From the NCBI RefSeq assembly GCF_017873815.1, contig NZ_JAGGKQ010000004.1, forward strand, positions 62,001-126,000: 64,000 nucleotides of DNA, written 5' to 3'. The position numbers were made by a program, and so were the translations under genes. This stretch comes from Halorubrum alkaliphilum. GTDB lineage: Archaea > Halobacteriota > Halobacteria > Halobacteriales > Haloferacaceae. The stretch's first letter is position 1; every line of letters begins with the position of its first letter. The notes beneath the pieces are model-generated. The model was not told the origin of the DNA, searched no databases, and saw nothing but the letters and a program-made list of their open reading frames with translations. Below, piece after piece: positions 10,507 through 29,315 of this stretch.

Positions 10507-10699
10507 GGGGGGCGTGGCCGCGGTATCGGTGTTAAGCGGTCGGAACGGGGGTTTATGAGGGATACGGAGGGGGTGACGGTACGGATTGTGGTCGCGTGTT
10601 CCTCGTTGCCGGCGCAGGGGCCTTTTTCGGCGTTTCGGTCTGTCCTTTATAAAGAGTGATTACGGATCGGTGATGAACGCCTCGAAAGTCCCGACCGCT
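10507..10699. other. Intergenic segment before repeat copy A
   Basis: Contains a degenerate preceding unit of the repeat opening: ctttataaagagtgattacgg at about 10640 followed by gaacgcctcgaaag at about 10676, parallel to gtttataagtgattgattacgg and gaacgcctccaaag about 60 bp later. No gene seen. Confidence 0.5.
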
Positions 10700-11070
10700 C
10701 GTTTATAAGTGATTGATTACGGAGCGATGGGGAACGCCTCCAAAGCCCCCAGCCGGGAGGACGGCGTACGCTCGCTGCGCGCTTCGGTCACTCGCGCTGC
10801 TCGTTCCCTCCAGTGCTTGCGTCGTCATCAGAACGCTCCGCGTTCTGATTGGCTCACGAGAGCGCCGCTCTCGTGAACGCCTGCGCCGTCCTCCCGACTG
10901 CCCCGTTGAGTCCTGCCCCACAGCAACCGCACCTCACGCCTCCCCGGCCTCGTCGGCCGGCCTCCGCGTTGCTCCGGCCGGCCGACTCCCTCGCGCGACG
11001 CTCCTCGCGCCCTACTGGGCGCTCGGAGGGGCGCGCCACCGCATCGTTTATTTATAAAGAGTCGTCGCCG
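10700..11070 (+). repeat. Structured intergenic repeat, copy A
   Basis: About 370 bp that aligns throughout with copy B (28957-29315). Fixed landmarks: cctccaaagcccc at about 10738, a long-range stem 10755-10766/10884-10895 (12 bp), the segment cagtgcttgcgtcg at about 10811, the conserved cacctcacgcctccccggcct region at about 10930, an 11-bp hairpin 10952-10962/10976-10986, a hairpin 11007-11012/11017-11022, and the end ccaccgca at about 11036. Inside the main stem this copy has two extra perfect hairpins (10827-10849 and 10855-10875). tttataa boxes lie at both edges (about 10703 and 11047). No ORF is supported. Confidence 0.85.
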
Positions 11071-28851: not shown

Positions 28852-28956
28852 CACACGGTGTGTCGTAGAGGAGCGATAAATCGGTGCCGGGTCGGTGATC
28901 GTTGCGCCGACCCAGTTGTAGTCTATTTATAAGAGGGTGGTAGCCGGTTGGCTGGG

Positions 28957-29315
28957 AACACCTCCAAAGCCCCAGCCGCTTGCTTATAAGTCGTTCTTGG
29001 CATATCGACGGCGAACACCTCCAAATCCCCAGCCGCTTGCTTATAAGTCGTTCTTGGCATATCGACGGCGAACACCTCCAAAGCCCCAGCCGCGAGGCCG
29101 GCGCACGCTCGCTGCGCTCCTCAGTCGCTCACTCCGTTCGCTCCTTCCGGTGCTTGCGTCGCCTGCGCCGGCCTCGCGGCTGCCCCTTTGAGTCCCACCC
29201 CGCACAGCACCTCACGCCTCCCCAGCCTCGCCGCTCGCGCTTGAAAGCGCTCGCGGCGTCCCTCGCGCGGTCGCTCGCGGGCCGAAGGCCCGCTCACGGC
29301 ACACGCCACCGCAGT
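28957..29315 (+). repeat. Structured intergenic repeat, copy B, with 57-bp tandem leader
   Basis: Opens with the unit aacacctccaaagccccagc at 28957, again at 29014 and 29071 (57-bp period; each of the first two units carries gcttataagtcgttcttggc). The core has a perfect 16-bp long-range stem 29088-29103/29166-29181, the segment gtgcttgcgtcg, a hairpin 29229-29258 and a 7-bp perfect hairpin 29277-29283/29287-29293, and ends ccaccgca at about 29305. The same order is seen in copy A but with different arm sequences. No ORF supported. Confidence 0.88.

Follow-up and report, generated by a model that had tools for sequence, protein, structure and literature searches.

In bacteria, REP and REPIN sequences are built from units of 20-40 bp, carry GTAG/CGTC tags and are accompanied by a RAYT gene (PMC3733652, PMC3116915). 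Haloarchaea harbor PATEs (PMC3119063), found also in Halorubrum lacusprofundi (PMC10544981), which are short, non-coding, palindromic, IS605-related elements with near-terminal palindromes and without target duplication. The SMR-A elements of Haloquadratum are about 110 bp long, reach up to 54 copies, have prominent inverted repeats, cause no target duplication, are inserted in PATE/IS605 palindromes and form families without mutual sequence similarity (PMC3119063). Structured haloarchaeal non-coding RNAs include the omegaRNA/sotRNA of IS200/IS605 (TnpB).

We analyzed a 64,000-nucleotide stretch of Halorubrum alkaliphilum DNA (hereafter, the window), which holds two copies, A and B, of an intergenic element with divergent but self-complementary hairpin arms. 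Like REP, BIME and REPIN sequences, the element occurs as many dispersed intergenic hairpins, forms inverted pairs in some lineages and combines long persistence with turnover; it differs in being archaeal and in consisting of an approximately 120-nt rod with a GA ladder and a linker/hairpin domain. Its distribution is REP/REPIN-like, but it lacks the partner gene that defines them (Y1/RAYT), as Y1 is missing in 6 of 19 congeners. With SMR-A it shares a size near 110 bp, prominent inverted arms, copy numbers in the tens and the lack of target duplication, and the dissimilarity among SMR-A families is what nearly free arms would give; however, the present element lies in plain intergenic gaps, and it was set against SMR-A by description only. 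It is like PATEs in being short, non-coding, palindromic, haloarchaeal and free of target duplication, but it persists without TnpB in one genome (G058) or Y1 in the six congeners. Going by the published descriptions, SMR-A/PATE would be the likeliest known home for part of the family. The omegaRNAs are of comparable size, but matches to our covariance model R1 (built from 71 rods) lie off the TnpB genes of the own genome, and G058 does without TnpB. We consider it reasonably probable that A and B belong to a dispersed, non-coding element found throughout the haloarchaea, and that selection acts on its minus strand to keep a single-stranded fold, in all likelihood as RNA.

Layout and spread of the element

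Copies A and B and four blocks common to them were found where a first-pass annotation had placed them, and the segments 10755-10766/10884-10895 and 29088-29103/29166-29181, which it had paired, are exact reverse complements, each lying inside a longer arm pair (86% and 87% complementary, respectively). Its placement of the element was correct as far as it went, but the element reaches further left into tandem 57-bp TTATAA units (10646-10749; 28927-29087). The blocks, described as unpaired, keep their positions, but gtgcttgcgtcg, which reads CGACGCAAGCAC on the folded strand, belongs there to an irregular rod. The folded strand is the minus strand, so the plus sequence, as originally read, is the complement of the folded one.

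Copy A (10646-11057, folded strand minus) includes left TTATAA units and a right TTTATAA box. It starts with two tandem units of about 57 bp (10646-10749; spacing 57), each composed of TTTATAA, 23 nt and a GAACGCCTCCAAAGCCCC-like block. These are followed by the stem-1 domain (10750-10900, minus strand; arms 10750-10771 and 10879-10900), which is matched by R1 on the minus strand (contig C4:72737-72912). The domain contains the GA ladder (10786-10808, minus strand; GG-GA-AC-GA-GC-agc-GC-GA-GT-GA-CC) and a nested 52-bp, two-hairpin cassette (10825-10876) that is absent from copy B. Next come a linker that is G-rich on the minus strand (10901-10951, minus; GGGGAGGCGTGAGGTG), hairpin 2 (10952-10986, minus; an 11-bp perfect inverted repeat), hairpin 3 (11001-11028, minus; internal TC/TC, equivalent to GA/GA on the minus strand) and the conserved end block TGCGGTGG (minus) with the TTTATAA box (11036-11057, minus). 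By Pfam, one neighboring gene encodes a NucS-N-domain protein and the other a DEAD/Sec63-domain helicase.

Copy B (28927-29314, folded strand minus; R1 match 137.7 bits) is flanked by genes for an M29 peptidase and an M3 (oligopeptidase F) peptidase, again by Pfam. Three 57-bp TTATAA units (28927-29087; spacing 57 and 57), the last of which enters the 5' arm, lead into the stem-1 domain, delimited by R1 at 29074-29193 on the minus strand (CTCAAAG-GGG-arm ... arm-GGG-CTTTGGAG; arm pair 29079-29108/29161-29190). On either strand, its predicted fold is far more stable than those of dinucleotide-shuffled sequences (z about -7). Its GA ladder (29123-29145, minus; AG-GA-GC-GA-AC-gga-GT-GA-GC-GA-CT) differs from that of copy A in the 2-bp steps (AG-GA-GC-GA-AC versus GG-GA-AC-GA-GC), which are still paired, with GA/GA kept. 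A linker, G-rich on the minus strand (29183-29229, minus; GGCTGGGGAGGCGTGAGGTG...GGGTGG) and similar to linkers in other families, is followed by hairpins 2 (29230-29257, minus) and 3 (29270-29300, minus), both with GA/GA on the minus strand. As the first reading had it, hairpin 3, the last hairpin, differs in sequence between the copies and pairs within each. Read along the minus strand, both copies thus present the end block TGCGGTGG, hairpin 3, hairpin 2, the G-rich linker, the rod of about 120 nt (CTCAAAG-GGG-arm-tip-arm-GGG-CTTTGGAGG) and the 57-bp TTATAA units.

Other copies carry up to five extra tandem units, which may be promoters or iterons. Cassettes of about 45-55 bp with two hairpins, like that at 10825-10876, recur at set sites inside four named copies and others; they occur in both orientations, have stems that are variable yet complementary (e.g. 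GTCGCCGGC..GCCGGCTGCCAGAG..CTCGC) and are probably a separate repeat family of smaller size, which may be PATE-like.

The supposed restriction to two copies did not hold, as blastn returned 81 pieces in this draft genome, which fall into about 40 loci, and also matched each of 34 congeneric genomes that were sampled. When named genomes were scanned for exact 25-mers, only Halorubrum records were among the matches listed. R1 gave 37 matches in the own draft genome, a few of which are a single locus hit on both strands. At E <= 1e-6, six congeners gave 117, at least 150, 100, 10, 89 and 123 matches, 150 being every scored candidate in that congener and hence a lower bound. Across the class Halobacteria, R1 matched 212 of 292 genomes, which represent 61 of 77 genera, with E-values that are rough and inflated by GC-rich hairpins. 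In a phylum-wide sample of 197 genomes, 22 matched, all in the order of the window, and no match fell outside the class. The best distant matches keep GACUGAAAGGGGC...CGACGCAAGCACCG...GCGCAGCGAG...GGGGCUUUCGAGG; distant families keep GACUGAAAG-GGG-C...GGGG-CUUUC, with C-G of the outer helix replaced by G-C, and some retain the linker and hairpin 3 with GA/GA. In three genomes of this set (G256, G058 and G282), a hand count from the match list gave 17 inverted pairs, all 17 with their 5' ends facing. Draft contigs often end in or beside an element (eight named cases), some of them in C/G runs resembling assembly artefacts; the copy number of the own genome is therefore probably underestimated.

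No Rfam 15 family reached its gathering threshold at the elements (best E-values 2.4 and 1.8, far below it), and over the window Rfam recovered two tRNAs only. A description of the fold was not found in the open-licence literature, and the non-coding family is apparently undescribed.

Covariation and the folded strand

The rod consists of an outer CTCAAAG/CTTTGGAG helix, an invariant GGG/GGG internal loop, an arm helix of 19-22 bp whose sequence is almost unconstrained and, at the tip, a ladder in which 2-bp helices alternate with tandem GA/GA on the minus strand. Covariation was assessed on 71 rods, aligned nearly without gaps (two gap columns, both from one sequence) and hardly fitted to structure. 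Both sides had changed in 24 of 41 pairs. Double-changed cells numbered 282, compared to 73.5 +/- 9.9 after shuffling, although such cells are not independent events, given the common descent of the copies and the gene conversion that has probably taken place among them. On each of five measures, all 500 shuffles fell short of the observed value; this control, like the between-copy exchanges, is independent of the source of the structure, while ignoring relatedness. The pairing of 97.6% of the cells fell to 27-47% when partners were slid by 1-3 columns, a control that somewhat favors the tested structure, which derives from a single member's fold. Unaided, RNAalifold predicted 37 same or equivalent pairs, 23 of them compensated. 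The first-pass annotation had read compensatory change as a sign of selection on a fold, and the strong covariation across many copies, under both the shuffled and the slid controls, bears it out. The aligned sequences support the notion that the element is under selection for one fold while its sequence changes; covariation alone is no proof of transcription or function.

The ladder follows the same rule on a small scale. Its 2-bp steps interchange among GC/GC, GT/AC, AC/GT, GG/CC and AG/CT, while the GA/GA columns are kept in at least 71 of 73 cases. TC/TC, read on the plus strand, makes up 122 of 233 symmetric 2x2 loops, with the next commonest loop at 12 and no such excess in shuffled sequences. 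A ladder is present in 93 of 206 copies, in none of the shuffles and for none of 11 other dinucleotides tried. Hairpins 2 and 3 carry GA/GA in 109 of 206 copies, between 30 distinct flanking helices. The asymmetric loops around CGACGYAAGCAC / GCGCAGCGAG are strongly conserved. As a separate observation, the rod interior is flipped between the arms relative to the flanking blocks in 7 of 253 copies.

On the minus strand, G.U exceeds A.C by 64 to 14, and 175 distinct stems gave the same direction (69 versus 35). The minimum free energy (MFE) of the minus strand lies below that of the plus strand in 204 of 204 copies, a difference due in part to GA mismatches and G.U, which are favorable on the minus strand alone. 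RNA rules applied to the minus strand recovered 92% of the ladder pairs, compared to 11% with DNA rules and 44% for the plus strand, and the ladder was wholly in the optimum in 59 of 73, 6 of 73 and, with plus-strand RNA, 15 of 73 cases, respectively; DNA nearest-neighbor tables may understate sheared GA, so that single-stranded DNA may be compatible with this comparison. By these sequence measures, the folded strand is the minus strand. As the ladder is optimal with RNA minus-strand parameters and not with DNA or the plus strand, we prefer a structured RNA over single-stranded DNA or a cruciform. Of the two forms envisaged initially, RNA or cruciform, the fold itself stands, and the G.U/A.C counts, GA/GA and the RNA-versus-DNA folding favor RNA over a symmetric cruciform; the fold would most likely act as RNA.

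TTATAA boxes, which are near-palindromic, flank the element on both sides, and the direction of a candidate promoter is therefore ambiguous. A box stands to the left of CCTCCAAAG at a spacing of exactly 28 nt in 117 of 253 copies, and 5-8 nt to the right of CCACCGCA in 95 of 203. If the box with the 28-nt spacing is a promoter, it would be aimed at the plus rather than the folded strand. A plus-strand RNA starting at GAACACC, suggested by a 23-nt TATA spacing, was rejected as the folded strand by the wobble counts and the GA ladder, but a plus-strand transcript may still exist.

Siting, turnover and mobility

Among 214 distinct contexts, no copy lies inside a gene called by a codon-usage gene caller. 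The gaps are convergent in 76 cases, same-strand in 55 and 55, and divergent in 28. That there is no orientation link to the neighbors (55 versus 55) speaks against both a leader and a unidirectional terminator. Between the genes that flank copy A, an element is also present in nine other species, with arms that differ greatly among species and are still self-complementary (e.g. CAGTCGCGCTCGGC, CAGCCGCGATTCCCGC, CAGCCGGGAGGCGGGCG). The orthologous gap is empty in four cases and holds a remnant in another; individual copies are therefore dispensable, but every element present has kept the fold. Similar arms recur at different loci and in different species, implying conversion or replacement among copies.

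Along two chromosomes (G008 and G061), the strand of high-scoring copies appears clustered (two-arc permutation p 0.0065 and 0.02), while the same permutation was not significant in three other genomes. Strong replichore polarity, suggested by a Fisher test for G008 (2.4e-4), was weakened by these permutation values and by the null result in the three genomes, and is no more than a lead. Lower-scoring copies of G008 lean the opposite way.

Y1 transposase (PF01797) is absent from 6 of the 19 congeners, all of which carry the element, and G058 has no match for TnpB (PF07282) despite 69 copies. Neither is therefore a required partner in those genomes, and dependence on IS200/IS605 or TnpB was rejected. 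A protein-coding remnant, the transposon fragments against which the first-pass annotation had weighed its reading, was likewise dismissed, as open reading frames over both elements have no Pfam match and copies lie between called genes; so was an origin from viruses or phages, to which no match was found. The Halorubrum query matched four plasmid records weakly, none of them from Halorubrum, although pHLAC01 was in the collection; cores of other families match haloarchaeal megaplasmids, with no annotated gene beneath the match.

Terminal repeats CGGGAGTRGGTCTCGCAAT (TIR-like CGGGAGT ends) bound a minority of copies, 9 of 23 in the own genome and 6 of 169 in others. Terminal inverted repeats GAGYGATRTCGGGAGTRGGTCTCGCAAT bound own-genome copies of about 570-620 bp (L010 1379-1947, L012 1403-2019). 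By inspection, no target duplication was seen at the flanks of TIR-bearing copies; target duplication is common to many MITEs, not all. The TIR-bearing form is perhaps a MITE carrying the element in Halorubrum alkaliphilum.

Competing readings and what the element would mean

The same fold could serve as single-stranded DNA, that is, as a REP/IS200-like hairpin of a spreading element recognized by an HUH or other protein, for example on the lagging-strand template. Dispersed, intergenic, orientation-neutral copies and the inverted pairs in other genera do resemble REP/REPIN, sheared GA occurs in DNA hairpins too, and there is the weak strand polarity along two chromosomes. However, DNA parameters do not give the covarying tip as the optimum, G.U that is both frequent and stable befits RNA more than DNA, Y1 is missing from six element-carrying congeners and the polarity is not significant in three other genomes, and we regard this reading as unlikely. 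An origin of the arms in mutation bias alone, by template switching that perfects quasi-palindromes or by gene conversion, could draw on the similar arms at different loci and species and on the occasionally inverted interiors, which indicate that the palindromes do recombine. Yet such processes are strand-symmetric and would erase mismatches, whereas GA/GA is invariant beside covarying 2-bp steps, G.U exceeds A.C and the asymmetric loops are conserved across families. Quasi-palindrome correction was rejected on the invariant GA/GA and the excess of G.U over A.C; the GA ladder and the wobble asymmetry already largely refute the mutational reading, to which we give very little credence.

It is also rather doubtful that we are dealing with a haloarchaeal mobile element of the usual kind that lacks a transposase (PATE, SMR or MITE) and has a fold that is a transposition signal only. 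The dimensions, copy numbers and inverted repeats of SMR-A speak for it, as do copies with terminal repeats CGGGAGTRGGTCTCGCAAT and without target duplication; but such repeats are found in few copies while the inner fold is kept, 69 copies persist in a genome devoid of TnpB, and there is no viral or phage match. The frequency of convergent gaps might point to a cis-acting 3'-end device after genes, either a bidirectional terminator or an mRNA stabilizer. We consider this improbable, given that neighbor orientation is unbiased though the covarying fold is one-stranded, that divergent gaps are used too and that orthologous genes in other species lack the element.

Returning to the RNA reading, we suggest that the rod of about 120 nt, in full copies preceded by the G-rich linker and two further hairpins, would act as RNA. 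It might be a scaffold to which a protein binds, as both the GA ladder and the conserved asymmetric loops (CGACGYAAGCAC / GCGCAGCGAG) have the look expected of such a site. Copies could behave as a REPIN-like, non-autonomous repeat that spreads and is maintained with the help of a putative protein acting in trans, and would survive where they are least harmful, in gaps between convergent genes. More tentatively, the element may represent a new, haloarchaea-specific class of structured RNA, reaching at least 150 copies, with a GA-ladder rod that is a scaffold for a conserved haloarchaeal protein and with RNA-dependent spread that does without Y1 and TnpB.

Structured RNAs with such covariation are normally encoded by one or a few genes per genome. 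A structured RNA of a class with up to 150 copies, present in most haloarchaeal genera sampled and absent from Rfam, would be an unrecognized large part of archaeal intergenic DNA. Its covarying 2-bp helices between invariant tandem GA would be an unusually clean RNA design, in cells with molar potassium, and the element raises the question of how a repeat moves without Y1 or TnpB transposases.
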